The translations under genes and the position numbers were made by a program. Shown one piece after another: positions 413 through 60,120 of a stretch of DNA of 64,000 nucleotides; position 1 is the first letter of the stretch, and each line of letters begins with the position of its first letter. This stretch comes from Calorimonas adulescens. GTDB taxonomy: Bacteria > Bacillota > Thermoanaerobacteria > Thermoanaerobacterales > UBA4877. Location of the stretch: NCBI RefSeq assembly GCF_008274215.1, contig NZ_VTPS01000011.1, positions 1-64,000 on the forward strand, in the 5' to 3' direction. A model generated the notes under the pieces. It had not been told where the DNA came from and did not search any database. It worked only from the letters and a program-made list of their open reading frames with translations.

Positions 413-979
413 TTACCTTGCAGCTGCAACCTTTGCAGCGGCAACTATAGCAGATATATAACCTTTTGTATCTACTAATGTAGCACCACTTACCGCATCA
501 ACCATTTGTTCAGGGCTGTTCTTTGCAAGGATGTCTTCTAATTCTGAAATTGTTTTTCCTGTTACATATGCTTCAATAGCATCAAAAGACTTGTTTATAG
601 GTGTTGTTGCGCCAGCCTCTTCTTTCATATGTTCACTGTAGTATTCTGCATTTGCTCTCTTGGATGCTAAAACCATATTTGGGTCGGCATAATTTTTCCC
701 AAAATCACTGTCAGAATTTGGGACACCCTTTGCTACGTCCTTGCTCATAAATTGATAATCATCTATGGATGCGCCTACAATTTTGTCACCCTGCAAAGCT
801 ACTACTGCGACTGTAAAACATTTTGTTCCATGGGCTGCATATTCGACTCTTCCCATTTTTATGGGCGCTGCATCTGGCTGTGAGGCATTTGTTGATGAGG
901 TTGATGGTGAACTGCTTGAACAACCGGCAATGCTTAAAACTAAAATAAGCATTAACGAAAAGATTATAAATTTTTTCAT
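413..979 (-). CDS. FMN-binding domain lipoprotein
   Basis: This 188-residue secreted lipoprotein starts with a basic-hydrophobic signal peptide and lipobox LSIAGC (Cys about residue 20), followed by a Ser/Thr-rich linker. The rest matches an FMN_bind domain. Near the C terminus it carries DAVSGATLVDTKGY, whose SGAT Thr is the residue flavinylated (covalent FMN) in RnfG/NqrC-type proteins. It therefore probably acts as a membrane-anchored extracytoplasmic electron carrier. It stands alone, with its own promoter and no Rnf genes or ApbE flavin transferase beside it, so its redox partner is unknown. The start is ATG behind AAGGGGG. Confidence 0.8.
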   Translation of the reverse strand: MKKFIIFSLMLILVLSIAGCSSSSPSTSSTNASQPDAAPIKMGRVEYAAHGTKCFTVAVVALQGDKIVGASIDDYQFMSKDVAKGVPNSDSDFGKNYADPNMVLASKRANAEYYSEHMKEEAGATTPINKSFDAIEAYVTGKTISELEDILAKNSPEQMVDAVSGATLVDTKGYISAIVAAAKVAAAR

Positions 980-1025
980 AAAAAACCCCCTTACATTAAT
1001 ATTTAATATGTACTTTACGGTATAA

Positions 1026-1055
1026 ATTATATATGGATTGTTTATGTTTTGTCAA
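1026..1055 (-). promoter_or_regulatory. Sigma-A-type promoter for the FMN-binding lipoprotein
   Basis: On the minus strand TTGACA (complement of 1050-1055) and TATAAT (complement of 1026-1031) are separated by 18 bases. This places transcription start near 1019, about 40 bases before the start codon. Confidence 0.65.
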
Positions 1056-1619
1056 TAGAAATTGTCATACATTTAACATTAAAACAGTATATCGATTTTG
1101 CTTTAATTTAATTGTTGTTGATGTTAAAAAATTATTTGGCAAAAACCATTTGGCAAAAATCATATTAATAATTTACGTCTATTTGAGAAAACATAATTGC
1201 CACCCGTTGAAGTTTAATAAAAAGTGATCAACTACTTTTTATTACCAAAACTCGATTAACAGTATATTTTTGTTTATCATGTGGTTAATATACAAAATAA
1301 AATTTGCATTTTATAAAACATACATCACCAGGGGAATACAGAGGAGCATAGCCAGATTATCTTGTATCTATAGACGGGGCAAGTTATTCTGTCTCATAAT
1401 TATACTTACACCAAGATGGTGTTAAAACAAGCGTGAATTTGCTGGCTTTATAAATGCATATACAACTTTGACCAGATTGTTGAGATTCTGTGACAGATGC
1501 TACAGGTATTGCAGTATAAGGTTTGTGCTTATAGACAAATTTTATAAATTGTTTATGAGGAACACTGTAAGTATCAAGCAATTCAATGTATAACCTTTGA
1601 GATTATATGGTTAAAACTG
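1056..1619. other. Gene-poor AT-rich spacer with one inverted repeat
   Basis: No convincing gene is present. Short open frames here (for example plus 1033-1227 and minus 1384-1581) have no ribosome site and no recognisable family. A perfect 10-bp inverted repeat, AATAAAAAGT at 1216-1225 and ACTTTTTATT at 1234-1243, could be a weak terminator or an old element end. The stretch 1330-1600 is less AT-rich than its flanks and may be decayed coding DNA, but I recognise nothing in it. Confidence 0.4.
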
Positions 1620-1648
1620 TTGACAGTTAGTTTGTTATTGCTTATTAT
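1620..1648 (+). promoter_or_regulatory. Sigma-A-type promoter upstream of fluoride riboswitch 1
   Basis: TTGACA at 1620-1625 and TATTAT at 1643-1648 are 17 bases apart. The expected transcription start is about 1655, roughly 20 bases before the aptamer, so the riboswitch lies at the 5' end of the moxR operon transcript. Confidence 0.6.
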
Positions 1649-1673
1649 AATATTAATAGAACCGTATATGTTT

Positions 1674-1760
1674 TGGGTGATGAAGTCCACCCGTAATTAT
1701 CTCAAGGTGAGGTTAATGACTTCTACTTCTGAAGGGGAGTAGGAGTCTTATTTTATTTTA
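1674..1760 (+). promoter_or_regulatory. Fluoride riboswitch (crcB motif) with overlapping terminator
   Basis: The aptamer begins GGGTGATGAAGTCCACCC (1675-1692; outer stem GGGTG/CACCC). It continues with a short stem CTCA/TGAG (1701-1711) and TTAATGACTTCTAC. GAAGTC in the first loop can pair with GACTTC (1718-1723) as the pseudoknot. This matches the published fluoride aptamer pattern (GGGCGATGAGGCCCGCCC ... GCTGATGGCCTCTAC). GACTTCTACT (1718-1727) also pairs with AGTAGGAGTC (1738-1747), followed by TTATTTTATTTT: a terminator that uses up the pseudoknot strand. Fluoride binding should therefore prevent termination and switch on the moxR/mutS-like operon. The call rests on motif recall plus base pairing read directly. 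Confidence 0.9.
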
Positions 1761-1834
1761 AAGGTATGTGTATTATGTCTTACCATTGAATTAAAGAGAT
1801 ATGCATTTTGAGTTGAAAGAATGGGGGGTTTATT

Positions 1835-2779
1835 TTGGACGTTAATGCCTATGTAGATTTCAAGAATAAAATAGTAGAAAATGTTTCAAAGGTCATAGTA
1901 GGCAAAAATGAAGTTATTGAACTGGTCATTATAAGTTTTATATGTGGAGGGCACGTACTTTTAGAGGATATACCTGGCGTTGGCAAGACCATGCTTGTAA
2001 AGGCCTTTGCCAAAACAATTGGTAGCAGCTTTAAACGGATACAGTTTACACCGGACCTTTTGCCTTCAGACCTTACAGGTATAAATTTTTATAATCAGAA
2101 ATCCAACGATTTTGAATTTAGGCCTGGCCCTTTATTTGCGAATTTAATCTTAGCGGATGAAATAAATAGGGCCACACCAAGAACTCAATCAAGTCTTCTT
2201 GAGGCTATGGAGGAAAGGCAGATCACGGTTGATGGAGTAACAAGAAAACTCCAAGAGCCCTTTATGGTACTTGCCACACAAAATCCTGTGGAATCATATG
2301 GGACTTTCCCACTGCCAGAAGCACAACTGGACAGATTTTTTATGAGGATAAGTATGGGATATCCTAAACGAGATGAAGAGATAGAGATAGTTAAGAGGAA
2401 CAGACACTCTAATATTGTTGAAGGGTTGCAGTGCACAATAACTAAAAATGAGATCGAATATGTTAGGACTAACTACAGCAAGGTTAATGTCTCTGATGAC
2501 GTGATGGAATACCTTATGGATATCGTCGATGCAACAAGAAAAGATGACAGGATACAGCTGGGTGTAAGTCCTAGGGGAACTATTGCATTATTTAAAGCCT
2601 CCCAGGCATACGCAGCAATAGAGGGACGAGATTATATTATACCGGAGGATGTAAAGAAAATGGCACCCTATGTATTAAATCACAGAATAGTTGCAAAAGG
2701 GATAAATAGGGGGCGGAACATATATGAGTTTGTTAAATCTATGATAGATAGCATAAAGGTTCCTACAGAAGAGATATAG
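1835..2779 (+). CDS. MoxR-family AAA+ ATPase
   Basis: This 314-residue MoxR ATPase is of normal length. The P loop is IPGVGKTML (Lys about residue 51), Walker B is LILADEINRATP (about 107-118), and the sensor region ATQNPVESYGTFPLPEAQLDRF is typical of the family. The C-terminal lid includes GVSPRGTIAL. MoxR ATPases work as chaperone-like remodelers, usually encoded with DUF58 or vWA partners, as here. The start is TTG at 1835 behind GGGGGGT. It is the first gene of the fluoride-riboswitch operon and lies 10 bases before the DUF58 gene. Its substrate is unknown. Confidence 0.92.
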   Translation: MDVNAYVDFKNKIVENVSKVIVGKNEVIELVIISFICGGHVLLEDIPGVGKTMLVKAFAKTIGSSFKRIQFTPDLLPSDLTGINFYNQKSNDFEFRPGPLFANLILADEINRATPRTQSSLLEAMEERQITVDGVTRKLQEPFMVLATQNPVESYGTFPLPEAQLDRFFMRISMGYPKRDEEIEIVKRNRHSNIVEGLQCTITKNEIEYVRTNYSKVNVSDDVMEYLMDIVDATRKDDRIQLGVSPRGTIALFKASQAYAAIEGRDYIIPEDVKKMAPYVLNHRIVAKGINRGRNIYEFVKSMIDSIKVPTEEI

Positions 2780-2789
2780 GGGTGTTTGC

Positions 2790-3902
2790 ATGATCTATGT
2801 GCTTGTATTTTTGGTGATAATTGGAATTACACTTAATTCCATATCAAAAAAATATGTCTTGTATAATCTTACTTATAAAAGAGAGATAAATAAGAGAATA
2901 GTCGAAATAGGCGAGGAATTTGAAGTAGTAACAGTGGTAGAAAACAGAAAGATGTTTCCCGTTACATTTCTCCAGATAATTGAAAAGTTTCCTTCAAGCC
3001 TAAACTACAAATTTAAGGCTGTTATACAGCCTACCACAGACTATGTGTACCACACAACAACTATGTTAATTATGCCGTATCAGAGAGTAAAAAGGAATTA
3101 CAAGGTTTACTGCAATAAGCGTGGCAGATTCATCTTCAGGGATGTAACCCTAATAGGAGGTGATTTGTTAGGTTTTAATACAACTATTGACAATGTTGAC
3201 TATTCTCAGGATATTGTAGTGCTGCCGAAGGCTGCAGACTTAGATAGCACGATAATACCTTATGGAGATTATAATGGGGATTTTTCAGTTAGACGTTGGA
3301 TAATTGATGACCCTGTTTTAACTGTTGGTATTAAGGAGTATACCGGTACTGAACCGGAAAGGACTATCCACTGGCCATCTTCTCTCAAATCTGGACGATT
3401 GATGGTAAAAAAATTTGATTATACATCCGATAATACGGCAATGATTCTATTGAATATAGAGTGTTCAAAACCATTTTGGGCTGGAATAAATAAGAAAGAT
3501 ATTGAGGAATGTATTTCTATTGCAAGGGCTGTTGTAGAAAAATTTGAGGAATTGGGCATACCCTATGGGTTTGCAACAGATGCCTATTACAGTGGAAATA
3601 ATGAAGGGGGCAGTGTACAGGCGGCTGGTTTTGGAGTGACTCATTATTATGATATTGTTGAAAACTTAGGAAGAATTGATTATGACATATGTATAAACTT
3701 TGAGGAACTGCTCCTAAAACAAATAAATAACAATGTAAATTATACCACGCTTGTAATCATAACGCCATCAATTCTTGAATCCTATGTTGAACATATCAAT
3801 AGCTTGAGCCAAATAGCAATCAAGACAATTGTAATAGCTCTGGAGAGCACAAACATGAAGTATTTAGGCGATGATATACTATCATTCATTAAAAGAGGGT
3901 GA
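2790..3902 (+). CDS. DUF58 domain protein
   Basis: This 370-residue protein has one N-terminal hydrophobic segment (about residues 2-17) and a long predicted extramembrane region. The family hallmark is DPVLTVGIKEYTGTEPERTIHW followed by SSLKSGRLMVKKFDYT (about 172-212). A vWA-like C-terminal part follows, with ISIARAVVEKFEELGIPYGF and a late LVIITPS segment. DUF58 proteins are the standard partner of MoxR ATPases; their biochemical role is not established. The GTG start of the next gene overlaps this stop by 4 bases, indicating translational coupling. Confidence 0.88.
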   Translation: MIYVLVFLVIIGITLNSISKKYVLYNLTYKREINKRIVEIGEEFEVVTVVENRKMFPVTFLQIIEKFPSSLNYKFKAVIQPTTDYVYHTTTMLIMPYQRVKRNYKVYCNKRGRFIFRDVTLIGGDLLGFNTTIDNVDYSQDIVVLPKAADLDSTIIPYGDYNGDFSVRRWIIDDPVLTVGIKEYTGTEPERTIHWPSSLKSGRLMVKKFDYTSDNTAMILLNIECSKPFWAGINKKDIEECISIARAVVEKFEELGIPYGFATDAYYSGNNEGGSVQAAGFGVTHYYDIVENLGRIDYDICINFEELLLKQINNNVNYTTLVIITPSILESYVEHINSLSQIAIKTIVIALESTNMKYLGDDILSFIKRG

Positions 3903-5155
3903 ATTCCTTGAATGGTATGAAGGGACTCCTAATAACAAAGGTATTTTGTGACTTTTCACTGGTCTTTGGAGTTATAAATTATTTGTTCCCTATTATGGGA
4001 TCAAGCAGGATAAACAGTATTATCTATATAGCCATCAGTAGTTTGACCTGTCTTATTTATTTTACAAAAGAAAAGAATAAACGATGGATATATGCGCTTA
4101 TCCCATCTTTGTTCATACTCTTTTTGACATTTAGAGTCATTAACAGTATAGCGTATTTTATCACAATATTTTTTTGTGTTATCTTTTTCCTTTTTAGGGA
4201 TATAGGTAAAATTGATTATTATTCATTTATGGAGACGTTTAAAAAAGGGATAGGACTTGTTGCTATAATATTTGGCATTTCTATTATAAGAAAAAACGCA
4301 AATATTTTTAGTGCCGTTTCAGCGCCATATATAATAGTTTATCTTGTCTTTTCTGTTGTACTTTTAAGGACACTCAGGTATATGGAATACAATAAAAGCA
4401 GTATGGATATCAATAAAATTAATTTGAAATATTCTGCGATAATCACAACCCTGTCACTGACGATAAGCATGAAGCCTATAAGAGAATTTATCTTCAATTT
4501 GTTATATCAAATCCATAATTTTATTATAAATATGCTTTTTTATCTTCTATCCTGGCCTTTACTTGGTATAGGATATGTGATGCAATTCATTGTCTACTTT
4601 GTAAAAAAAATTATAAGCACAAATGCAAGACAGCAAGTATCTATAAATGTTTCAGGGCCTCCTTTTGAAGATATTAGGGAAATAAATAGAACCGACATAA
4701 TTGAATTTTTAATGAAAAACAAATTAGTAAACACACTGCTGCAAATAATCATTTTTACAGTAGTTATATGGCTGCTTATTAGGATATTTGGTAGACAGTT
4801 TCAACTGAAACAAGAAGAAGAGGAGTATACCGAAAGCAGAGATTTTATAATAGAAAAAAACAAAAATAGCTATATAAGAGGGATACCCATTATATTTAGC
4901 AAGAATACACCTGTTGATTATGTAAGGGCCTATTATCTTAAATATCTTAAAATGTGTCAAGCAAAAAAGATTGATATAAAAAACAGCGACACAACCCTTC
5001 AAATAAATGATAAAGCTAAGGAATATTTTGATTCAAATATCATCGAAAATATCAGAGAAATATATATAAAAGTCAGATATGGAGGCTGGTCTCCGGATAA
5101 TACAGTAAAAAAGGAGTTTTATCAGCTTTTTAAGAGTCTTACAAAACATAGATGA
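3899..5155 (+). CDS. Multi-spanning membrane protein with DUF4129-like C terminus, no transglutaminase domain
   Basis: This 418-residue protein starts with several hydrophobic segments (roughly residues 8-150), then TM segments near 205-235 and 280-300. The soluble tail (about 305-418) contains TPVDYVRAYYLKYLK and EIYIKVRYGGWSPD, resembling the DUF4129 domain that ends TgpA-like transglutaminases in MoxR-DUF58 operons. The Cys-His-Asp transglutaminase core that normally lies between membrane part and DUF4129 is absent; only a short extracytoplasmic loop is present. It is probably the membrane anchor for the MoxR/DUF58 pair. The GTG start at 3899 overlaps the previous stop; TTG at 3908 is an alternative. 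Confidence 0.65.
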   Translation: MNSLNGMKGLLITKVFCDFSLVFGVINYLFPIMGSSRINSIIYIAISSLTCLIYFTKEKNKRWIYALIPSLFILFLTFRVINSIAYFITIFFCVIFFLFRDIGKIDYYSFMETFKKGIGLVAIIFGISIIRKNANIFSAVSAPYIIVYLVFSVVLLRTLRYMEYNKSSMDINKINLKYSAIITTLSLTISMKPIREFIFNLLYQIHNFIINMLFYLLSWPLLGIGYVMQFIVYFVKKIISTNARQQVSINVSGPPFEDIREINRTDIIEFLMKNKLVNTLLQIIIFTVVIWLLIRIFGRQFQLKQEEEEYTESRDFIIEKNKNSYIRGIPIIFSKNTPVDYVRAYYLKYLKMCQAKKIDIKNSDTTLQINDKAKEYFDSNIIENIREIYIKVRYGGWSPDNTVKKEFYQLFKSLTKHR

Positions 5156-5193
5156 AAGCAATATGAAACATTTTGAAGGTGAGGTGTTCGTGT

Positions 5194-6726
5194 GTGATTT
5201 TTTACAGCATATTATATGAAAAAGCTGAAAACAGAAAAAAGGAGGTGGCGGAAGCACCGGATTTTTTTAGGGATTTAAATCTTGACCAGATTATAGATGA
5301 AGTAACGGCCGGAAGGGATGAATATAATCTAAAACCTTTCTTTTATACCTCTTTAGATAATATCGATACCATAGAGTATCGTCACGAAATAATGCGAGAC
5401 CTGGAGAACGAAAGCCTTCTGAGGTGTATGAAGTCATTTATACAAAATATGCATAAAATGCGAGAGTATCTTGCGCTATCAAACAAGCTTTACTATAAGT
5501 ACCAGAAGGAAAGATGGTTTTTAGATGCGGTGGAGGTTTATTGTAACACTGTAAGTTGCCTGACAAATGATTTGAACTCTACAGAACTGAAATCCCGCGG
5601 TTTTTTGGCTTTCCGTGAATTTATAAGGGACTATTCAGGGTCTGATGGTTTTATATCTCTTTTTGACGAAATAAAAAAACTTAAATCTGATTTAGCTTCA
5701 GTAAGATATTGTATGCTTATAAGAGGTAACAGCATCAGGGTTCAAAAATACGAGTCTGAGGTGGACTACAGCGAGGATATAGAAGAAACCTTTAAGAAAT
5801 TCAAGCAGGGAGCAGTGAGAGATTACAAAGTGAAATTTAACGACTCACCAGACATGAACCATGTTGAAGCTGGGGTATTGGATCTGGTAGCCAAATTGTA
5901 TCCCGATATTTTTTCAAGTCTTGATGAGTTCTGCATGAGAAACAGCGGATATTTGAATGAAACTATAGCCATTTTCGAACGGGAGGTACAGTTTTATATA
6001 GCTTATCTTGAGTATATCGCTGAATTTAAGCGAGCAGGGCTTAAGTTTTGCTACCCACAAGTTTCCAGCAAATCCAAAGAAGTTTATAATTACGAAGGTT
6101 TTGATCTGGCCCTGGCTTATAAACTCATTAATGAGAATTCATCTGTTGTCTGCAACGATTTTTATTTAAAGGGTAAGGAGCGCATATTTGTTGTCACAGG
6201 TCCAAACCAGGGGGGCAAAACAACATTTGCCCGCACCTTTGGTCAATTGCATTATCTTGCCAGCTTAGGCTGTCCAGTACCCGGGCAAAGAGCCAAGCTT
6301 TTTCTGTTTGATAGGATTTTTACACACTTTGAGAGGGGAGAGAACATAAAAGATCTCCGGAGCAAACTGGAGGATGAACTGGTTAGAATTTACCATATTT
6401 TAAATATGGCTACGCCGAACAGTATTATCATAATGAACGAAATTTTTACTTCTACTACGTTAAAAGATGCTATTTTCTTGAGCAAAAAAATAATGGAAAA
6501 GATAATACAACTGGATTTGTTATGCGTCTGTGTAACATTTATTGACGAACTGGCTTTTTTGAGTGAGAAAATCGTGAGTATGGCCAGCACGGTAGTTCCT
6601 GAAAATCCGGCATTACGGACATATAAGATTTTAAGGAAACCTGCCGATGGACTTTCATATGCCATATCAATTGCAGAAAAGTACCGGCTTACTTACGAGT
6701 GTTTAAAGGAGCGGATAAGGGAATGA
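5194..6726 (+). CDS. MutS-like ATPase A (degenerate Walker B and His switch)
   Basis: A MutS-family protein of 510 residues without the mismatch-recognition N-terminal domain. Residues about 1-330 are helical lever-like sequence; the ATPase follows with Walker A TGPNQGGKTT (about 336-345). Walker B reads IIIMNEIFTST (about 410-420): Asn where MutS has Asp, Glu kept. The following segment CVTFIDEL (about 446) lacks the usual Thr-His pair. The start is GTG at 5194, six to eight bases after AAGGTGAGGTG; an upstream TTG at 5173 is less likely. It is paralogous to the next gene, whose ATG overlaps its stop by 4 bases, so the two may form a hetero-oligomer. MutS-like genes are known members of fluoride-riboswitch regulons. 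Confidence 0.85.
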   Translation: MIFYSILYEKAENRKKEVAEAPDFFRDLNLDQIIDEVTAGRDEYNLKPFFYTSLDNIDTIEYRHEIMRDLENESLLRCMKSFIQNMHKMREYLALSNKLYYKYQKERWFLDAVEVYCNTVSCLTNDLNSTELKSRGFLAFREFIRDYSGSDGFISLFDEIKKLKSDLASVRYCMLIRGNSIRVQKYESEVDYSEDIEETFKKFKQGAVRDYKVKFNDSPDMNHVEAGVLDLVAKLYPDIFSSLDEFCMRNSGYLNETIAIFEREVQFYIAYLEYIAEFKRAGLKFCYPQVSSKSKEVYNYEGFDLALAYKLINENSSVVCNDFYLKGKERIFVVTGPNQGGKTTFARTFGQLHYLASLGCPVPGQRAKLFLFDRIFTHFERGENIKDLRSKLEDELVRIYHILNMATPNSIIIMNEIFTSTTLKDAIFLSKKIMEKIIQLDLLCVCVTFIDELAFLSEKIVSMASTVVPENPALRTYKILRKPADGLSYAISIAEKYRLTYECLKERIRE

Positions 6727-8231
6727 ATGTTTTTCTTATGTACAGGGACCGTGATTTTAACCTTCAAGGAGAATTGCCGTGGAATGAACAGTCACTTACG
6801 CGGGATTTAGATTTAAACACACTTTTTGACGCCATGGCACAAGGTGATGATTTCTTGTTTGAAGTTGCAAAAAGAGCTGTTTTATCTGGTTTGGATAACG
6901 ATATGGAAACAATACTGTATCGCCAGGATATTCTTAAGGACTGTTTAAAAAATGCCTCTATTGTCAGGGATATGTACGACATAGCGGTAGAGTCAATTAA
7001 AAACGAGAAAAAGAATTATTGGGGCCTTTTCAGCAATTATCCTCGCGCGGTGCTGGATAGAGCCGTTGAGGTTATGAATATGTTTATGGACATGCTCAAA
7101 AAGATTAAGAATATCGCTGATGAACATGCTGATAGATTTGAGTCTGAGGGCTTTACGGCGTTTTTCGCCATGATTAAAAGGGAACTTGATGATGAATACT
7201 TTGAACTCGTTCAAAGTCATTTAAACGAACTAAAGTTCCGTGATGGAGTTTTAATAAGTGCTGAATTGGGAGAGGGCAATAAAGGGACAAATTATATATT
7301 ACGTAAACAGCAAAATAAAAAGAAACAGGGTTGGATAAAACAGTTCTTTTCTAAAAAAGTACCCGCTTATATCCTTTATATTCCTGACCGTGATGAAAGT
7401 GGCTTTAGGGCTCTTGGAGAGCTGGTGGACAGGGGTTTAAACCTTGCTGCGAATGCTCTTGCCCAGTCCAATGATCATATTCTCGGGTTTTTTAACGCAT
7501 TGCGGACGGAGTTGGCTTTCTACATTGGCTGTTTGAATCTATATGGCCAGCTTTCCCAAATTGGGGGACCTGTATCTTTCCCATTGCCTGTAGCCGTTAA
7601 CGAACGCAGGCATTCTTTTGAGGGATTATACGATGTGTGTCTGGCTTTAAAGATGAAACAAAAAGTTGTGGGTAATGATTTGAATGCTGATGGAAAATAT
7701 CTTTTTATAATCACAGGGGCCAACCAGGGCGGCAAATCTACATTTTTGCGCAGTATAGGCCTGGCCCAGTTGATGATGCAGTGCGGCATGTTTGTGCCGG
7801 CCGAAACTTTCTGTGCCAATATCTGTGACGGTCTTTTTACGCACTTCAAACGGGAAGAAGACACTACCATGGAGAGCGGCAAGCTTGATGAGGAGCTAAG
7901 CAGGATGAGCGACATTGTAGATAATATAACTTCAAATTCCATGTTGTTGTTTAGTGAATCATTTGCCTCGACAAATGAGAGAGAGGGCTCCGAAATTGCA
8001 AGGCAAATAACCTACGCCCTGATGGAAAAACGAATTAAGATTTTCTTTGTTACACATTTATATGAATTTGCACATGGTTTTTATGAAAAAAACATGATAG
8101 ATGTTGTCTTTCTTAGAGCTGAAAGACGAAGTGACGGTGGACGGACCTTTAAATTAATCGAGGGTGAGCCGTTGCAAACGAGTTTTGGTATAGATTTATA
8201 TAACAAAATATTTGGTAATGCCTGTAGATAA
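6723..8231 (+). CDS. MutS-like ATPase B
   Basis: This 502-residue paralog of the preceding gene shares the pattern LDLNTLFDAM ... LDN..TILYRQDILKD at the N terminus and a C-terminal MutS-type ATPase. Walker A is TGANQGGKSTF (about 331-341), the following conserved segment is LDEELSRMSDIV, and Walker B is MLLFSESFAST (about 404-414): Ser in place of Asp with Glu kept. Unlike protein A it keeps the Thr-His switch (FFVTHLYEF, about 441-449). No mismatch-binding or Smr nuclease domain is present. ATG at 6723 overlaps the previous stop (ATGA) and follows AAAGGAG, so the upstream GTG at 6699 is rejected. It is the last gene of the fluoride operon. Confidence 0.85.
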   Translation: MNVFLMYRDRDFNLQGELPWNEQSLTRDLDLNTLFDAMAQGDDFLFEVAKRAVLSGLDNDMETILYRQDILKDCLKNASIVRDMYDIAVESIKNEKKNYWGLFSNYPRAVLDRAVEVMNMFMDMLKKIKNIADEHADRFESEGFTAFFAMIKRELDDEYFELVQSHLNELKFRDGVLISAELGEGNKGTNYILRKQQNKKKQGWIKQFFSKKVPAYILYIPDRDESGFRALGELVDRGLNLAANALAQSNDHILGFFNALRTELAFYIGCLNLYGQLSQIGGPVSFPLPVAVNERRHSFEGLYDVCLALKMKQKVVGNDLNADGKYLFIITGANQGGKSTFLRSIGLAQLMMQCGMFVPAETFCANICDGLFTHFKREEDTTMESGKLDEELSRMSDIVDNITSNSMLLFSESFASTNEREGSEIARQITYALMEKRIKIFFVTHLYEFAHGFYEKNMIDVVFLRAERRSDGGRTFKLIEGEPLQTSFGIDLYNKIFGNACR

Positions 8232-8836
8232 TGTAAACACTGTCTGCAGAATATTATTTTTGATTTTTATTTTAACAATAACAATCAGGCTAAATTTTCA
8301 TATTCTGATACTATAAAAGGCCATCTGCAGTCTATAAATAAAGGTTTGAAATCTCCAGCAATAAATGAGATATACAAATGACTGGAGATTTTTATTATAT
8401 TGAATGACATTCAATTTTTCAAACAGAATAGGTTGAATGTTATTCAAATTATAATTAACAATATAAATATTAAGAAATATGTTGACAAATAAATTGTTTT
8501 GATGTATTATAGTTTTCAAAGTAGACAGATAGATATGATGGACTAATATTAATGCTTTATCCGTTTTAGCGCTTATTGCTGGAATGTGACTTTCAGGTTT
8601 AATTTTTTAGCTGCTCAATCAAATCCATCAATAAATTCAATAATAATCTGCAGCGCCTCAGCGTCAACACAATATTGATAGTTGTGAAGGGGGGATTCTG
8701 ATGGGTTGAATATCTATAGTGTATAGACGAATATAGATAGCCTCAGAAAATATTTTATTTTATCGAAGGTTGGTGCACAGCTTGAACTATATGAGAGCAA
8801 TACCAGATCGAAAAAATGAAATGGAGGCTATTTCAA
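8232..8836. other. Long intergenic region with inverted repeats
   Basis: No gene is recognised. AAATCTCCAG (8349-8358) pairs with CTGGAGATTT (8382-8391) ahead of a TTTATTATAT tract and is the best candidate terminator for the fluoride operon. A second nearby pair of elements (TTGAATGACATTCAA near 8400 and TTGAATGTTATTCAA near 8430) is internally palindromic. The remainder up to the protease start has no clear promoter, although the sequence around 8616-8675, read on the minus strand, gives a short open tail (EALQIIIEFIDGFD then stop) that could be gene debris. Confidence 0.4.
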
Positions 8837-10552
8837 ATGAAAAAATGGTTATCAATTTTACTGATAGGGTTACTGGTTTTAGGTTTTTCGGCACCAGTGA
8901 TAGGAGCCACAAATGGAGATTTAAAGCCTGTAGAAAAGCCTGAGAACATTACCGAGTGGAAAGTCACGGATAAGGGAGATCTTGAAAAAGAAGCTAAACT
9001 GCCGGACATAAGTGACAAAGACAAGAATAAAATGGCAGATGACCTTGACGATAAGCTTTCAGAGGCCAAAAATGATGAAGAAATACCTGTAATAGCAATA
9101 CTTGAAAAGGAACCAACAGAAGATATTATAGACAGCATAGAAGGTCAAATCGGGAAGTTTAAGTTAAATAAGAAATGGGGAAAAGCAGTCGATGGTTTTT
9201 CAGCTTTAATGACCCAGGAGCAGATTAATATCTTGTCTAAGATGGATGAGGTTAAAAGGATAGACTATGATAGAGAGGTTACTGCATTCTTAGACACGGC
9301 AACAGTTTGGACTGGAGTTCAGCAGGCAAGAAGGGATTTTGGCGTTGATGGTGACAGAGATGGAAATTCTGCGGTGTATTCAAAAAATGACGTGGTGGTA
9401 GCTGTTATAGATACTGGCATAGATACCGGCCACGTAGACCTGGACGAAGGAAAGGTAATTGGATGGAGAGATGAAGTAAATGGGAAGAGCACCCCGTATG
9501 ATGACAATGGTCATGGTACCCATGTATCCAGTATCATAGCCGGTACAGGGGAGGGCAATTCAGCATATCGTGGTGTAGCACCGGGTGTAGCACTGGTAGG
9601 TATTAAAGTACTCGATTCTAGAGGAAGTGGAACAACCAGTGATATTATTTCGGGCATAGATTGGATGATAGCTAACAAGGACACATATAACATAAGGATA
9701 GGAAATATGAGCCTGGGAGCCACTGGCTCGTCAGATGGTACAGACAGTCTGTCGCTTGCGGTAAATAGGGCAGTTGATAATGGCATAATAATGTGTGTTG
9801 CTGCAGGAAATGAGGGTCCTGCAAGGTATACAATAGGGAGTCCTGCAGCTGCTGCTAAGGCTATTACAGTTGGCGCTTCATATGACCCGGGTGAAAAAGG
9901 GTGGGTCCTAGCGGAGTTTTCCAGTCGAGGGCCTACAGCTGATGGGCGTACAAAACCCGATATAATTACACCAGGTCGAAACATTACTGCTGCTAAAGCA
10001 GGTTCTAAAGATGGTTATGTAACATACAGCGGCACATCTATGGCTACACCTTTTATGGCTGGAGTATTGGCGTTGATGCTTGATGCAAACTATTCTCTTA
10101 ATGATTCTGCTGTGAAAAACATATTATACTCAGATACAAATTTAAAGGACTTTGGGCCATCTGGTAAGGATATAGACTTTGGGTCAGGAATAAACATTTC
10201 TTACAATGCCGTAAAAAGTGCAGGAGGCTTTAACGGCAGTTTCAGTGACGGCCTTGTCTTTGATTATGGAGAGGCCACGCTCACAGGTACAGGTGATACC
10301 GATTGGTGGGAGTTTAATGTAACAGAATCTTCAAAACCCATAGGTATAACCTTTGTTATTCCAAACCATACCTCATCAATAGACTTTGACATTTATCTGT
10401 ATGATCCAAATGGTAAACAGGTGGCTGCGTCCGAAGGCACAAAGAGACAGGAACAGATATTGTTTACACCATCAACTGCAGGGACATATAGGCTAAAAGT
10501 ATATTCATATAAAGGGTCAGGCGGCTACTGGTTTAATGTAAGCTATAAATAG
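8837..10552 (+). CDS. Secreted subtilisin-like serine protease (S8) with PPC-type C-terminal domain
   Basis: This preproprotein of 571 residues has signal peptide KKWLSILLIGLLVLGF ending near PVIGA and an acidic-basic pro-region with an I9-like part (IPVIAILEKEP through MDEVKRIDYD). The S8 catalytic domain has Asp in AVIDTGIDTGH (about 190), His in NGHGTHVSS (about 227), oxyanion Asn in AAGNEG (about 323) and Ser in SGTSMATPFMAG (about 400). The last 110 residues (GDTDWWEFNV ... GTYRLKVYSYKGSGGYW) resemble a pre-peptidase C-terminal (PPC) beta domain. ATG at 8837 lies nine bases after GGAGG; ATG at 8816 is in frame but has no ribosome site. It probably degrades extracellular protein. Confidence 0.93.
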   Translation: MKKWLSILLIGLLVLGFSAPVIGATNGDLKPVEKPENITEWKVTDKGDLEKEAKLPDISDKDKNKMADDLDDKLSEAKNDEEIPVIAILEKEPTEDIIDSIEGQIGKFKLNKKWGKAVDGFSALMTQEQINILSKMDEVKRIDYDREVTAFLDTATVWTGVQQARRDFGVDGDRDGNSAVYSKNDVVVAVIDTGIDTGHVDLDEGKVIGWRDEVNGKSTPYDDNGHGTHVSSIIAGTGEGNSAYRGVAPGVALVGIKVLDSRGSGTTSDIISGIDWMIANKDTYNIRIGNMSLGATGSSDGTDSLSLAVNRAVDNGIIMCVAAGNEGPARYTIGSPAAAAKAITVGASYDPGEKGWVLAEFSSRGPTADGRTKPDIITPGRNITAAKAGSKDGYVTYSGTSMATPFMAGVLALMLDANYSLNDSAVKNILYSDTNLKDFGPSGKDIDFGSGINISYNAVKSAGGFNGSFSDGLVFDYGEATLTGTGDTDWWEFNVTESSKPIGITFVIPNHTSSIDFDIYLYDPNGKQVAASEGTKRQEQILFTPSTAGTYRLKVYSYKGSGGYWFNVSYK

Positions 10553-10560
10553 AAATGAAA

Positions 10561-10596
10561 CAGAGTCAGTGAATATGGTTCACTGACTCTGTTTTA
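10561..10596 (+). terminator. Terminator between the protease and the convergent enolase remnant
   Basis: CAGAGTCAGTGAA (10561-10573) pairs perfectly with TTCACTGACTCTG (10579-10591), followed by TTTTATT. Upstream AAATGAAA gives a weaker T tract for the opposite strand, so it may work both ways. Confidence 0.85.
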
Positions 10597-10606
10597 TTCT
10601 GTTGTA

Positions 10607-11203
10607 TTACTTTTTTACGTTATAGAATACATTTTTACCTTTAAATATTGCACTATCTCCAAGCAGTTCTTCAATTCTCAAAAGCTGATTATATTTTGCA
10701 ATCCTTTCCATCCTGCACGGAGCACCGCTTTTTATTTGTCCAGCGTTGGTAGCTACAGCAACGTCTGCCATTGTAGTATCTTCCGTTTCTCCAGACCGAT
10801 GGGAGATAACCGTAGTGTAGTTGGCCCTGTGAGCCATTTGGATTGTATCAAGCGTTTCTGACAGTGTACCTATTTGGTTCAGCTTAATTAAAATTGAATT
10901 TGCTATATTTTTATTTATGCCTTCCGCAAGGTCAATTTTTCTTTGTTCAAGCACATCAATACCTGATATTTCTGGAGCAATGATCTTATTTACATTATCC
11001 ACAACTGTTCTAACACCTTTGCCATGGAATCTTTTCTTATCATTGTCCCGAAGCTCTACTGCTTCCCTTGTACCTGTAGAAGCTCCTGAAGGGACAGCTG
11101 CCCTTCCTATAACTCCATTATCCAATATAACGTCAACTTCAACTGTCGGATTCCCCCTGGAATCCAAAATTTCTCTTGCTTTTACGGAATTGATGCTTGG
11201 CAT
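10607..11203 (-). pseudogene. eno: Enolase with large in-frame internal deletion
   Basis: The 198-residue reading frame joins the enolase N terminus ([36 protein letters not shown], up to DVLEQRKID near residue 85) directly to the C-terminal part ([47 protein letters not shown]). Normal enolases have about 430 residues, so roughly 230 are missing without a frame shift. The missing part carries the catalytic Glu pair and the three Mg2+ ligands, so 2-phosphoglycerate dehydration is not expected. ATG at 11203 follows GGAG by nine bases; ATG at 11212 abuts it and is rejected. It lies downstream of the MFS gene behind fluoride riboswitch 2, and enolase is a known fluoride target and fluoride-regulon member. 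Confidence 0.88.
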
Positions 11204-11333
11204 ATTTTCCATCTCCTTTATTTAAAAGTATTTGGTATGTTAAAGGCTGATTTATCCAATTGCTGAAATGATAGAAGTCATCAGCCGAATATCCGTTAAT
11301 TAAAATATCTATTGTGGCGATATGATTATCCGC

Positions 11334-12542
11334 TTACTCCATATTGTTATCATCATTTGTAGGAAGTTTTTCTATTTTTGAAAAGCTTATTATCAAAAAC
11401 GCAGTAAATGCGCATGCAGCCCCAAAATAAAATGTTGCTGAAGGGGAAACTTTATCCCATAGATATCCTGCAATAATATTTGCCGGCAAGGTCATAACGC
11501 CCAGAGAAGCATTGAATAAACCGTAGGCTGTGCCACGCTTGTTATCGGGTACTATATTGGCGACTAATGACTTCGCTATTCCTTCGGTAGTTGCATAATA
11601 AAGACCGTAGAATATGTATATTAACCATATATGCCATGGATGGTTAGCGAGGGCAAAGCCTATATATGATAGGGCATACACAAGCCATCCGATTTGCATT
11701 ACTTTGACCCTGCCTATCCTGTCCGAAAGACTGCCGGCAGGAACAGATAAAAGAGCATAAAAAAGGTTAAATACTGCATAGACTATCGGAATTGTTTCGG
11801 GACTTATACCTACGGTTTGAGCACGCAGAATTAAAAATGAGTCGCTTGAATTACCCAATGTAAAAACAAGCATGATTATAAGGAAGAACAGGAATTTACC
11901 TTTTAATATGCTAAAATCAAATTTTGTCTGTTTCTTGGAAACAGGTGTGGCTTTTTCACTTACAAAAAGACCGATTAAAAGTATTGTTACGGCGGAAATT
12001 AGTCCTGCGATATAGAAGATTATTCTGTAACGCATATTTCCGCTTACTAAAAGATAAAGTATCCCGGTTGTCGCAAGGGGACCGATAACAGAACCGAACG
12101 TGTCAAGCATACGTTGATACCCGAAAGAAAATCCCATCCGGTCTTCCTTTGCTGATTGAGCCACTAATGCATCCCTGGGAGCGTCTTTTGTACCTTTTCC
12201 TATACCGTCAATTAAACGCAAAGTAAAAGCTTGCCATGCAAAAAACACAGTTCCAAATAGGAAACGGCTTATTGCAGAAAGTAAATAGCCGATAAAAACG
12301 ATACTTTTTCGTTTACCTAACCTGTCAGAAATAATACCGGAGAGTATTCTAAAGACACTTACAATTGTCGTCACGCTACCCTCTATAAGACCTATTGTCT
12401 CTTTGTTTAGTCCCAACACAGAGGAATAAAAGATCGGAAGTATTGGCTGAATCATATCCTGGCCGAAACCACCAAAAAAGGCCACCCAGCCCAGTGTACG
12501 GACATTATCTCTCTCTTTGTTCGGTTTACTCTTATTATCCAT
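11334..12542 (-). CDS. Major facilitator superfamily transporter under fluoride riboswitch control
   Basis: A 402-residue protein with about 12 hydrophobic segments. MFS signatures include the loop 2-3 motif SGIISDRLGKRKS, the family segment GIGKGTKDAPRDALVAQS, and the second-half equivalent AGSLSDRIGRVKV. The substrate is not deducible from sequence; related proteins are annotated only as MFS permeases. It is the first gene behind fluoride riboswitch 2, so a role in fluoride tolerance (export of the ion or a toxic product, or metabolite balance) is an inference from control alone. ATG at 12542 follows AAAGGGG. The enolase remnant lies 130 bases downstream on the same strand with no obvious terminator between. 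Confidence 0.88.
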   Translation of the reverse strand: MDNKSKPNKERDNVRTLGWVAFFGGFGQDMIQPILPIFYSSVLGLNKETIGLIEGSVTTIVSVFRILSGIISDRLGKRKSIVFIGYLLSAISRFLFGTVFFAWQAFTLRLIDGIGKGTKDAPRDALVAQSAKEDRMGFSFGYQRMLDTFGSVIGPLATTGILYLLVSGNMRYRIIFYIAGLISAVTILLIGLFVSEKATPVSKKQTKFDFSILKGKFLFFLIIMLVFTLGNSSDSFLILRAQTVGISPETIPIVYAVFNLFYALLSVPAGSLSDRIGRVKVMQIGWLVYALSYIGFALANHPWHIWLIYIFYGLYYATTEGIAKSLVANIVPDNKRGTAYGLFNASLGVMTLPANIIAGYLWDKVSPSATFYFGAACAFTAFLIISFSKIEKLPTNDDNNME

Positions 12543-12560
12543 AATTACACCCCTTTCATA

Positions 12561-12646
12561 AAAAATAAAAAGCTAATAATTCCACTATCGAGGTAGGAAC
12601 TATTAGCTTCTTAATTCAAGCATTTCTGACGAGTTCCATCGCCATT
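12561..12646 (-). promoter_or_regulatory. Fluoride riboswitch 2 with overlapping terminator
   Basis: Read on the minus strand, TGGCGATGGAACTCGTCA (complement of 12629-12646) forms the outer stem and loop. A GCTT/GAAGC inner stem follows, then TAATAGTTCCTACC. GGAAC in the loop can pair with GTTCC as the pseudoknot. GCTAATAGTTCC (complement of 12596-12607) also pairs with GGAATTATTAGC (complement of 12572-12583), followed by TTTTTATTTTT, giving a terminator that competes with the pseudoknot. The layout is the same as riboswitch 1 but the stem sequences differ, so it is not a recent copy. Fluoride should turn on the MFS/enolase transcript. Confidence 0.9.
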
Positions 12647-12668
12647 AGTATTTACTTTAACGATATAT

Positions 12669-12697
12669 ATTATAATATACATCATGAAATTTATCAA
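12669..12697 (-). promoter_or_regulatory. Sigma-A-type promoter upstream of fluoride riboswitch 2
   Basis: On the minus strand TTGATA (complement of 12692-12697) and consensus TATAAT (complement of 12669-12674) have the ideal 17-base spacing. Predicted start is near 12662, just ahead of the aptamer. Confidence 0.75.
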
Positions 12698-12839
12698 TGG
12701 ATATCTTAAGTGAGGATCGCGTCAAGTATTTGTTGGCACCTTTTTATTTACATAATCATCCATTTTTATATATTCATATTTATACAAACATTTAGCTGCA
12801 TTTGGCAATATAATAATCTTAATTAGGTGGGTAAGCCGA

Positions 12840-12965
12840 TCAAATATTTTTTTCTGTAGCAAGAAGGAATTTTTGTAGTGCAGGTAGAATTAATTTCATA
12901 AGACATCACCTTCCTTAAGTTTTATACTCATCCACTGTAAATGATGGGGAGGTCTTATTTCTACA
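12840..12965 (-). other. Possible insertion-sequence remnant or leader peptide region
   Basis: The minus strand has AAGGAAGGTG seven bases before an ATG (12899) that opens a 19-codon frame (MKLILPALQKFLLATEKNI) ending at 12840. Upstream is a partly self-complementary segment between GACCTCCCC and GTGATGTC. The arrangement resembles the 5' end of some clostridial insertion sequences, with the transposase body missing. I cannot name the element, and a random small frame remains possible. Confidence 0.25.
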
Positions 12966-13017
12966 TCTATCATTAATTTTCCTGCTCAATGGCCTGACGA
13001 AATTTTGTAATATAATG

Positions 13018-13073
13018 TTCTATGATGGTGATGCCTGTGATAGTGAAATATGGCATTTAGCTTTTAGAACACT
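13018..13073 (+). other. Structured region ahead of the cobyrinate synthase gene
   Basis: GTTCTA (13018-13023) pairs with TAGAAC (13066-13071), and ATGCC pairs with GGCAT inside it, giving a two-part hairpin about 100 bases before the start codon. TATAAT at 13011-13016 could be its -10 element, but no good -35 is present. It does not match the cobalamin riboswitch or any other class I know. Confidence 0.3.
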
Positions 13074-13174
13074 GTTGTTAGATATAGAAAAGCTTAAAGA
13101 AAAAGCGGTATACAGTCAATTTAGCTTTAGGTTTATAAAAATTTAAATTGTAAAGATGAATGAGGGGTATGAGG

Positions 13175-14536
13175 ATGCATAAGGGGATAATGATAGCTGG
13201 AACACATTCGGGTGCGGGCAAGACAACGGCCTGCATTGGGATAATGGGTGCGCTTTCAAGAAGATACGTTGTGCAGCCGTTCAAGGTTGGTCCGGATTAT
13301 ATAGACACATCATATCATAGGTATGCCACAGGCAAATATTCATGCAATCTCGATATTTATATGCAGAGCAGAGAAAATATTCTTTCTATATTTATTAAAA
13401 ATGCGTTTAGAGCTGATATTTCAATTGTAGAGGGTGTTATGGGTCTGTATGATGGGATGGACAGCACCAGCAATGGCAGTAGTGCTGACATAGCAAAACT
13501 CCTTGATATACCTGTAATATTGGTTGTGGATGCTGGCGCAATGTCTGCCAGTGTATCTGCCATGGTTATGGGATACATGCAGTATGATAAAAATGTAAAC
13601 ATAGTTGGGGTAATACTAAATAGAGTGGGAAGTGAAAGACATTTTAGACTTTTAAAGGAGTGTATCGAGAGAGACCTAAAACTGAACGTATTTGGCTATC
13701 TGCCATATAATAAGGACTTTAGACTGCCTGAGCGGCATCTTGGCCTTATACCGGCTTTTGAGATGGAGGGTCTTAATAAAAAGCTTGAAGATCTGTATGA
13801 TTGTGTGGAAGAAAATATTGATATAGACAGAATATTGGAGTCTGCTGTTGATATTGACTGTTGCGGTGATGGAGGAAATACTGGTGTTTCAGTTATCAAC
13901 AAAAGAGTAAAGATTGCTTATGCCTATGATGAAGCATTTAATTTTTACTATAAAAATACTATGGATGTATTTATGGAATCGGGTGCTGAACTGGTGCCGT
14001 TCAGTCCAATTCATGACAGTTCACTGCCTGCCGGGATATCGGGAGTATACATAGGCGGGGGTTTTCCAGAGGTCTTTGCTGAGAGACTCAGCAATAATAT
14101 AGGAATGATGGAGTCCATAAGAAATGCGGTAGAAAGCGGAATGGCAGTGTATGCGGAGTGTGGTGGGTTTATGTACCTTACGCGGTCAATAACCTGCAAA
14201 GATGGAAGTAAATACCCCATGGCAGGCATATATAATGTAGATACCATTATGACAGATAGGCTAAACCATTTTGGTTATGTAAAAGTAGACGTAATAGAGG
14301 ACAATGTACTTTTTAATAAAGGTGAAACGATTAGGGGACATGAATTTCATTATTCGAAGGTTTCAGGCGGGTATCCATGTATGTCATATTTAGTACATAA
14401 ACTGGGTGGAAATGAGGCCTGGCCGTGCGGATATAGATATAAAAACTGTCTCGGCACCTATGTTCACATAGACCTATCTGCTTATCCAACTGCAGTGAAG
14501 AAATTTATTAATTATATTAAAGATAGCAATGTATGA
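13175..14536 (+). CDS. cbiA: Cobyrinate a,c-diamide synthase
   Basis: A glutamine-dependent amidotransferase of 453 residues that amidates side chains a and c of cob(II)yrinate in B12 synthesis. The N-terminal ATPase-like domain has the P loop GTHSGAGKTT (about 9-18) and FKVGPDYIDTSYH. The C-terminal glutaminase domain has the nucleophile Cys in AECGGFMYLT and a His in GHEFHYSKV. The terminal motif is LGTYVHIDLSAYP. ATG at 13175 is seven bases after GAGGGG; ATGs at 13160 and 13169 are in frame but worse placed. No other corrin genes are in the window, so it is separated from its pathway or serves a salvage step. Confidence 0.92.
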   Translation: MHKGIMIAGTHSGAGKTTACIGIMGALSRRYVVQPFKVGPDYIDTSYHRYATGKYSCNLDIYMQSRENILSIFIKNAFRADISIVEGVMGLYDGMDSTSNGSSADIAKLLDIPVILVVDAGAMSASVSAMVMGYMQYDKNVNIVGVILNRVGSERHFRLLKECIERDLKLNVFGYLPYNKDFRLPERHLGLIPAFEMEGLNKKLEDLYDCVEENIDIDRILESAVDIDCCGDGGNTGVSVINKRVKIAYAYDEAFNFYYKNTMDVFMESGAELVPFSPIHDSSLPAGISGVYIGGGFPEVFAERLSNNIGMMESIRNAVESGMAVYAECGGFMYLTRSITCKDGSKYPMAGIYNVDTIMTDRLNHFGYVKVDVIEDNVLFNKGETIRGHEFHYSKVSGGYPCMSYLVHKLGGNEAWPCGYRYKNCLGTYVHIDLSAYPTAVKKFINYIKDSNV

Positions 14537-18486: not shown

Positions 18487-18541
18487 AATTTTTATTGGAT
18501 TTTTTTCTTAATATGTTATAATCAGTCTGGAGGTGATATTT

Positions 18542-19068
18542 GTGGATATAGAGGCAGATATACCAATTCTTATTGATAGACTGTCAAAAACAACAGGCCT
18601 TATCCTTGATGTCGGTACAGGACGGGGTGCTATGGCAGAGAATCTTGCAAAAAAAGGATATCATGTTGTTACAGTAGAATACAGTGAAGAGAGAATAAAA
18701 GAGACCAGACAGGACTTTGAAGGTAGAGGTATAGAAAATGTCCTTTTTATCCATGCTGATGCTCAGGCTCTTCCTTTCTTATCTTAGATGAGACTTTTGA
18801 CATGGTGACATGCTATAATGCAGTACACCATTTTGATGACTATGTTAAAGCCCTGAATGAGATGGAAAGGGTTTTGAAAAAAGGTGGTGTCATTGTAGTA
18901 ACAGAACTTAATGAAGATGGTAAAGAGGTAGTAGCTGAAGCACACAGACACAGAGGGGAAGAACATCATGATGAGATGAATATAGATAGGATAAAGGATG
19001 CTCTGGCCGGGCAAAAAAAGGAAATATATCATTTTGCTTATTTTGATGCGTTGATAATGGAGAAATGA
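18542..19068 (+). pseudogene. SAM-dependent methyltransferase broken by a 5-bp tandem duplication
   Basis: The first half (18542-18787) encodes a class I methyltransferase N terminus with SAM-binding motif LDVGTGRGAMAEN and the acidic strand VVTVEYSEERI. The second half, in another frame, continues with DETFDMVTCYNAVHHFDDY and LKKGGVIVVTEL. The frame breaks at TCTTATCTTA (18777-18786), two copies of TCTTA; with one copy the protein would read ALPFLDETFD without interruption. The start is GTG at 18542 after GGAGGTGA. The methyl acceptor is unknown. A sequencing error is possible. Confidence 0.85.
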
Positions 19069-44216: not shown

Positions 44217-44293
44217 GCGCCTGTAGCTCAGTTGGATAGAGCAACGGACTTCTAATCCGTGTGTCGGGGGTTCGACTCCCTCCAGGCGCACCA
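44217..44293 (+). tRNA. tRNA-Arg (TCT), CCA encoded
   Basis: Full cloverleaf: acceptor GCGCCTG/CAGGCGC, anticodon loop CTTCTAA (TCT), T loop TTCGACTC. First gene of the nine-tRNA array. Confidence 0.96.
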
Positions 44294-44298
44294 GTCCT

Positions 44299-44376
44299 GG
44301 TGGGTATAGTTCAGCTGGTCAGAGCGCCAGGTTGTGGCCCTGGAGGTCGTGGGTTCGAGTCCCACTACCCACCCCA
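44299..44376 (+). tRNA. tRNA-His (GTG), CCA encoded
   Basis: Anticodon loop TTGTGGC (GTG). The acceptor GTGGGTA/TACCCAC has an encoded extra 5' G (44299) facing the discriminator C, the identity mark of histidine tRNA. Confidence 0.96.
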
Positions 44377-44385
44377 TTTATACAT

Positions 44386-44461
44386 GACCCATTAGCTCAG
44401 GTGGCAGAGCACCTGCCTTTTAAGCAGGGTGTCCCGCGTTCGAGTCGCGGATGGGTCACCA
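44386..44461 (+). tRNA. tRNA-Lys (TTT), CCA encoded
   Basis: Acceptor GACCCAT/ATGGGTC, anticodon loop CTTTTAA (TTT). Confidence 0.96.
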
Positions 44462-44465
44462 CTTT

Positions 44466-44550
44466 GCGGGAGTGGCGGAACTGGCAGACGCGCAAGACTT
44501 AGGATCTTGTGCCTGTGGGCGTGGGGGTTCAAGTCCCTTCTCCCGCACCA
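44466..44550 (+). tRNA. tRNA-Leu (TAG), CCA encoded
   Basis: Class II tRNA with a long variable arm. Acceptor GCGGGAG/CTCCCGC, anticodon in ACTTAGGA (TAG). Confidence 0.95.
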
Positions 44551-44556
44551 GGTCAT

Positions 44557-44632
44557 GCGGATGTAGCTCAGTTGGTAGAGCATCGCCTTGCCATGGCGAG
44601 TGTCGCGAGTTCGAGTCTCGTCATCCGCTCCA
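44557..44632 (+). tRNA. tRNA-Gly (GCC), CCA encoded
   Basis: Acceptor GCGGATG/CATCCGC, anticodon loop TTGCCAT (GCC). Confidence 0.95.
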
Positions 44633-44651
44633 GTTTAATATGTTCATATGT

Positions 44652-44725
44652 GCGGGTGTAGCTCAATGGTAGAGCCCCAGCCCTCCAAGCTGGTCGCGAG
44701 GGTTCGATTCCCTTCACCCGCTCCA
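44652..44725 (+). tRNA. tRNA-Gly (TCC), CCA encoded
   Basis: Acceptor GCGGGTG/CACCCGC, anticodon loop CCTCCAA (TCC). Confidence 0.95.
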
Positions 44726-44738
44726 TTATTGAAAATAA

Positions 44739-44813
44739 TGGGATGTGGCCAAGTGGTAAGGCTCCAGAATTTGGATCTGGCATTCGCAGGTTCGAATCCT
44801 GCCATCCCAGCCA
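44739..44813 (+). tRNA. tRNA-Gln (TTG), CCA encoded
   Basis: Acceptor TGGGATG/CATCCCA, anticodon loop ATTTGGA (TTG). Its charging by the indirect route would use the GatCAB set encoded at 28.4-31.6 kb. Confidence 0.95.
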
Positions 44814-44820
44814 TAATCAT

Positions 44821-44896
44821 GCGCCATTAGCTCAGCTGGAAGAGCACCTGACTCTTAATCAGGGTGTCCAGGGTTCGAGTCCCTGATGGCGCACCA
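44821..44896 (+). tRNA. tRNA-Lys (CTT), CCA encoded
   Basis: Acceptor GCGCCAT/ATGGCGC, anticodon loop CTCTTAA (CTT). Confidence 0.95.
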
Positions 44897-44901
44897 AAGA
44901 A

Positions 44902-44989
44902 GCGGAAGTGGCGGAACTGGCAGACGCGCTAGATTCAGGGTCTAGTGGGAATTCCTCTCGTGGGGGTTCAAATCCCCCCTTCCGCACCA
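44902..44989 (+). tRNA. tRNA-Leu (CAG), CCA encoded
   Basis: Class II tRNA with long variable arm. Acceptor GCGGAAG/CTTCCGC, anticodon in ATTCAGGG (CAG). Last gene of the array. Confidence 0.95.
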
Positions 44990-59676: not shown

Positions 59677-59904
59677 ATAAGCTAATATTGATATCCTGAT
59701 AAAACAGTTTTCAGGGCATGTCATATAGCATCCAAATGGGTTTCTGCAGTGAGTTTATGATTCTTAAAAGGTGATGAACGGTTAATGATGATACGTCGAA
59801 CCTGACTCATGTAGGGGTATTAGAACATATTGAACAGGTGTCAGGTGCTGGAATATTATTGATATGTATGCTTATTACTTTTTAACATAATATGTAAAAG
59901 CAAT

Positions 59905-60120
59905 GAAGAAGAGGAGTAACCAGGAGCCTGGCTTTCAGAGAGGATGGGTCATGGGCTGTGAGCCTGTCTAAGTCAGACCGGTGAAGGTAGCTTTGGAGCT
60001 GTCAGGCTGAAACAACAGTAGGCCTGGCCGGGTATTCCGTTATATGAATGATTGCCCTTATACAGGGAATTAAGGTGGTACAGCGGCCCCCCGTCCTTTA
60101 GTGATGAGGGGCCTTTAATT
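59905..60120 (+). promoter_or_regulatory. T-box riboswitch controlling valS
   Basis: A T-box leader with stem I from about 59905 (AAGAGGAGTAACC ... GGATGGGTCATGGGCTGTGAG). The specifier is probably GTA (Val) at 59987-59989 in GGTGAAGGTAGC. The conserved T-box AAGGTGGTACAGCG lies at 60072-60085. The terminator GGCCCC (60085-60090)/GGGGCC (60108-60113) is followed by TTTAATT. Uncharged tRNA-Val should disrupt the terminator and switch on valS. One GGCCTGGCC word (60021) lies inside the leader. Confidence 0.9.

Follow-up and report, generated by a model that had tools for sequence, protein, structure and literature searches.

We find that a fluoride riboswitch on the minus strand of the window (the whole 64,000-nucleotide stretch of Calorimonas adulescens DNA analysed here) lies directly before a gene for an MFS transporter. 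With a probability of about 0.88, we read it as a transcriptional fluoride ON switch that would drive this gene, making the gene a regular member of the fluoride regulon in this lineage and its product a likely carrier of a solute relevant to fluoride stress. This account is based on membership of the RNA in a known family, covariation, a terminator that overlaps the aptamer, and the recurrent linkage of the gene to fluoride switches.

A covariance-model search of the full window with every family placed an RF01734 aptamer at 12652-12587 (-); its 40.4 bits exceed the gathering score of 34, and E for that search is 9.7e-08. Its first stem (GGCG/CGUC) lies within 12643-12628, a pseudoknot joins GGAAC at 12637-12633 to GUUCC at 12600-12596, and a second hairpin (GCUU/AAGC) spans 12621-12606, all on the minus strand. 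In an alignment of 35 aptamers, drawn from the window, its genome and related loci, 88.8% of cells were paired when the pseudoknot was written out, as against 37-54% in slid controls. Pairing reached 100% in the pseudoknot, with changes on both sides at three of its five pairs, 97% in the first stem, and 66% in the second hairpin, which falls in a poorly aligned region. The orthologous switch in Hungateiclostridiaceae bacterium UBA1305 (L007) pairs GGAGU with ACUCC where the window pairs GGAAC with GUUCC. The score, this covariation and the terminator described below together rule out a chance match to RF01734, and by its sequence and pairing 12652-12587 (-) is a genuine member of the known fluoride riboswitch class. 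Covariation was also one ground on which the sequence-only reading had let its proposal stand or fall. Its claim that an MFS gene on the minus strand is preceded by a second fluoride riboswitch, distinct from the first, holds.

The candidate promoter (12669..12697, minus strand) consists of TTGATA at 12697-12692, a 17-nt spacer and TATAAT at 12674-12669, and agrees with the consensus at 11/12 positions in our scan; promoter-like sites are no rarer than chance in this AT-rich stretch, and it is by position alone that this one is backed. An intrinsic terminator at 12567..12611 (-) overlaps the aptamer: AGAAGCUAAUAGUUCC (5′ arm, about 12611-12596) pairs with GGAAUUAUUAGCUU (3′ arm, about 12583-12568) in a stem of 15-17 bp, and a U-rich stretch follows. 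The fold reaches -18.7 kcal/mol (z = -6.15), a stability equalled in 0 of 200 shuffles. All elements of the promoter-aptamer-terminator unit that had been proposed were thereby located. Since the 5′ arm of the terminator takes in the 3′ strands of both the second hairpin (AAGC) and the pseudoknot (GUUCC, 12600-12596), aptamer and terminator cannot form together; as read from the sequence, this layout is that of an ON switch. An ATG at 12542, behind AAAGGGGTG, starts the MFS gene. Transcription would start shortly upstream of the aptamer. Without fluoride, the hairpin 12611-12568 would form and end transcription ahead of the MFS gene; Mg2+-bound fluoride would instead stabilise the pseudoknot (12637-12633 with 12600-12596) and the second hairpin, and an aptamer held in this way would keep its 3′ strands from the terminator, allowing the MFS gene and a shortened enolase gene to be transcribed. 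We infer both fluoride binding by the 12652-12587 copy and the direction of control (ON) from these features.

Three RF01734 matches were found genome-wide, two in the window and one on another contig (C20); with random placement, two of three inside 11 kb would be expected in about 2.5% of cases. The only other match within 900-13300 of the window lies at 1667-1732 (+), scoring 33.7 bits with RF01734, just below the gathering score of 34, and 50.9 bits with model R1, which was built here and included that sequence. This other switch has a promoter at 1620-1651 and terminator arms within 1718-1747, and is followed by genes for moxR, a DUF58-like protein, a transglutaminase-like protein and two MutS-like proteins. 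Comparison confirmed that its aptamer bases differ from those of 12652-12587 (-), as had been described. In the same family, the switch and gene order of window 1667-5155 (+) is kept at 86-94% identity in locus L106 (G001 contig C105). The switch on C20 (29.9 bits) precedes crcB and DUF190 genes. The sequence-only reading had drawn support for the MFS gene from there being no CrcB gene in the window, an argument weakened by this switch-controlled pair on another contig. With crcB present behind its own switch, the MFS transporter is an addition to CrcB, and a role as replacement for a missing CrcB is ruled out. A CLC-F exporter elsewhere in the genome was likewise rejected: the sole CLC protein carries GREGP, where the CLC-F signature is described as GREGT/V (PMC11139923), and is by this signature not CLC-F.

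The MFS gene (11334..12542, minus strand) encodes 402 aa and was characterised by Pfam, a tree, gene contexts and a fold search. Its match to the MFS_1 profile scores 166.3 bits (cut-off 33.4), and the protein model has a confident MFS fold (pLDDT 87.7), with NorA and YajR as the closest solved structures, a resemblance that does not indicate the cargo. Pfam matches were to MFS families only, with none to the known exporter families CrcB/Fluc (PF02537) and CLC-F (PF00654). Relatives of the protein split into two groups, separated by an identity gap between about 60 and 45%, and in a tree of 53 proteins the 19 close ones fall on one side of a branch with support 100/100; searches centred on G349 and G328 returned no further members of this clade.

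All 17 clade loci with enough upstream sequence have a fluoride switch ahead of the MFS gene and on its strand; L101, L104 and L109, truncated by contig ends, stand outside this count. Among 34 sister-group loci, no switch reads towards the MFS gene within 1.5 kb, and the two switches found within that distance at one of them (L070) both point away from it. Fisher's test of 17/17 versus 0/34 gives 7e-14, a guide only, as the loci are related and the upstream lengths examined differ; nor are the 17/17 to be read as 17 independent events, as clade members share descent and most of the non-direct cases come from one order. In five clade loci (the window, L007, L008, L009 and L011) the switch is immediately upstream. 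These directly controlled genes form one subclade and come from five genomes of several families: that of the window, UBA1305, Desulfosporosinus sp. PR, Caproiciproducens galactitolivorans and Caproicibacter fermentans. In the other 12 (L091-L095, L097-L100, L102, L103 and L105) further genes stand between switch and MFS gene, which comes later behind the switch, and linkage there is one of gene order. Genes for DUF6062, a small protein and/or a zinc-ribbon/HEAT protein are present in L091-L095, L098-L100 and L105. At L100 the switch is separated from the genes by inserted sequence that weakly matches a group II intron; at L097 two MutS-like genes come first and the MFS gene later; at L102 and L103 a Na+/H+ antiporter, Usp and a dynamin-like GTPase share the run with the MFS gene, which in L103 appears interrupted.

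Because a switch lies upstream in every locus that could be checked, the MFS clade is probably a standard part of the fluoride defence of the Bacillota that carry it, and on this linkage it looks like an under-described member of the fluoride regulon. The suggestion that the MFS protein is a candidate fluoride-related transporter gains from the same 17/17 loci. Fluoride riboswitches are a reliable pointer to fluoride-defence genes, and a clade found behind them in every informative locus makes a specific, easily testable candidate for a component of fluoride defence that has gone unrecognised. In our search of the open literature, whose coverage did not extend to the 2012 primary riboswitch paper, no publication linked a fluoride riboswitch with an MFS gene. 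The switch itself is a further case of a known RNA class, and we do not claim its association with MFS as unreported.

Relatives carry the same parts in denser clusters on both strands, which supports the local fluoride-response region proposed for the window: L009 has five fluoride switches in about 5 kb and L011 four in 2.4 kb, among genes for Usp, MutS-like pairs, crcB, an acetyltransferase and the MFS protein. The window is a rearranged version of such a region. Neighbours of the clade include enolase, Usp, Na+/H+ antiporter, MutS-like and crcB genes, all of known fluoride-linked types (PMC2864571, PMC5533749, PMC11139923). The discovery of the motif already brought up MutS, K+/Cl- transport and formate hydrogen lyase (PMC2864571), and enolase, Usp and crcB are fluoride-induced under one switch in Enterobacter cloacae (PMC5533749). 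As side observations, the switches of L091, L092, L093, L098, L102 and L103 stand before a recurring group of uncharacterised genes that may also belong to the regulon, encoding DUF6062, a zinc-ribbon/HEAT protein, a dynamin-like GTPase and a protein of 112 aa with no Pfam match, and tandem fluoride aptamers stand before a Na+/H+ antiporter gene at L091 (8212-8394), L092 (10558-10748), L094 (5118-5308), L099 (3803-3977) and L108 (1807-1979). Elsewhere, the window holds a methyltransferase gene apparently split into two adjacent reading frames (18533-19068, plus strand), a SAM riboswitch (21932-21831, minus strand), a cluster of nine tRNA genes (44217-44986, plus strand) and a T-box leader (59894-60101, plus strand).

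The MFS protein is most likely a 12-helix secondary transporter for a solute relevant under fluoride stress; that solute could be fluoride, or else an ion or metabolite that fluoride disturbs. We lean towards a protein that does not move fluoride: with enolase and other enzymes blocked by fluoride, it would carry a metabolite or balance ions or protons. The fluoride switch would then be real and the transporter an indirect stress gene. In keeping with this, the genome has its own switch-controlled crcB, genes for a Na+/H+ antiporter, Usp and enolase co-occur with clade members, the solved structures closest to the protein are those of MFS carriers for drugs, anions and sugars, and ion transporters, phosphate importers and antiporters have been described as fluoride-linked (PMC11139923). 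That the protein is instead dedicated to exporting fluoride, probably coupled to protons, and so adds a third kind of exporter to Fluc/CrcB and CLC-F, seems doubtful to us. The 17/17 linkage, the position directly behind a switch in five genomes of several families and an acidic residue of helix 1 kept in the clade (QDM) speak for it, but a similar acidic residue in the sister group (SE) means that this feature is not clade-specific, no halide-binding feature was found, and crcB occurs in the same genome and, in L009 and L011, near the MFS gene. With a switch-controlled crcB already there, a further fluoride exporter is not logically required. For the clade as a whole to be a third family of dedicated fluoride exporters under fluoride riboswitches, beside CrcB, is in our view unlikely.

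The transcription unit of the MFS gene would also contain an enolase gene that the sequence-only reading had missed (10607..11212, minus strand; 201 aa), shortened by a 690-bp in-frame internal deletion. Against the intact 432-codon gene at the same place in UBA1305, the closest relative, the 201 codons fuse an N-terminal to a C-terminal part; Pfam finds just Enolase_N 1-88 of 131 and Enolase_C 179-294 of 296, neither of them a full domain. Synonymous outnumber nonsynonymous differences from UBA1305 in both parts (33 to 5 and 44 to 8), which points either to a recent deletion or to a remainder still under constraint; the deletion may also be an assembly error. From known enolase structure and numbering, we take most metal and catalytic residues to fall in the missing segment, and we would expect no enolase activity from the 201-aa product; a full-length eno lies on contig C16 of the same genome. 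The shortened gene would be co-transcribed with the MFS gene, and a hairpin of 16 pairs behind it (10558..10594, minus strand; -25.5 kcal/mol, z -8.0), which could serve both directions, is a candidate end of the unit. Before the enolase gene, 11265..11313 (-) may be the decayed 3′ half of another fluoride riboswitch, a tentative assignment with a score too weak for a claim (17.3 bits with model R1, E 0.06 over 383 kb; 11.0 bits to RF01734). The enolase deletion, this possible remnant and an aptamer score of 40.4 bits versus 58.8 for the UBA1305 orthologue could mean that the whole switch unit is a decaying relic losing function in this strain, which we think very improbable given that the aptamer differences are compensated in the pseudoknot, promoter and terminator are intact, and the MFS frame differs from that of UBA1305 mostly by synonymous codon changes (142 synonymous, 37 not). 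Taken together, switch, MFS gene and enolase form a further, lineage-specific case, in which the enolase seems to have been broken recently.

The window switch resembles the crcB RNA motif (RF01734) in consensus, stems, covarying pseudoknot and overlapping terminator, and in its 5′ leader position before stress genes (PMC2864571). The RNA is no different; what differs is the gene under direct control, which encodes an MFS transporter, a type absent from the gene lists covered. NorA, a solved MFS multidrug exporter, has the same fold as the window protein and resembles it weakly in sequence along almost its full length, at about 20-22% identity, from which we do not infer drug export. In the fluoride-resistance operon of E. 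cloacae FRM (ppaC, uspA, eno, gpmA, crcB; PMC5533749), a fluoride riboswitch likewise controls stress genes that include enolase; it differs in being without an MFS gene, in its intact enolase and in its setting on an enterobacterial genomic island (PMC5533749). In the cluster of UBA1305, switch-MFS-eno-switch-MutS-MutS, an orthologous MFS gene (91%) stands behind a fluoride switch with enolase next and a MutS-like pair nearby. There, however, the enolase is intact and the MutS pair lies directly behind its own switch, whereas in the window the pair lies about 2.4 kb past the enolase on the other strand, after moxR, the DUF58-like and the transglutaminase-like genes.
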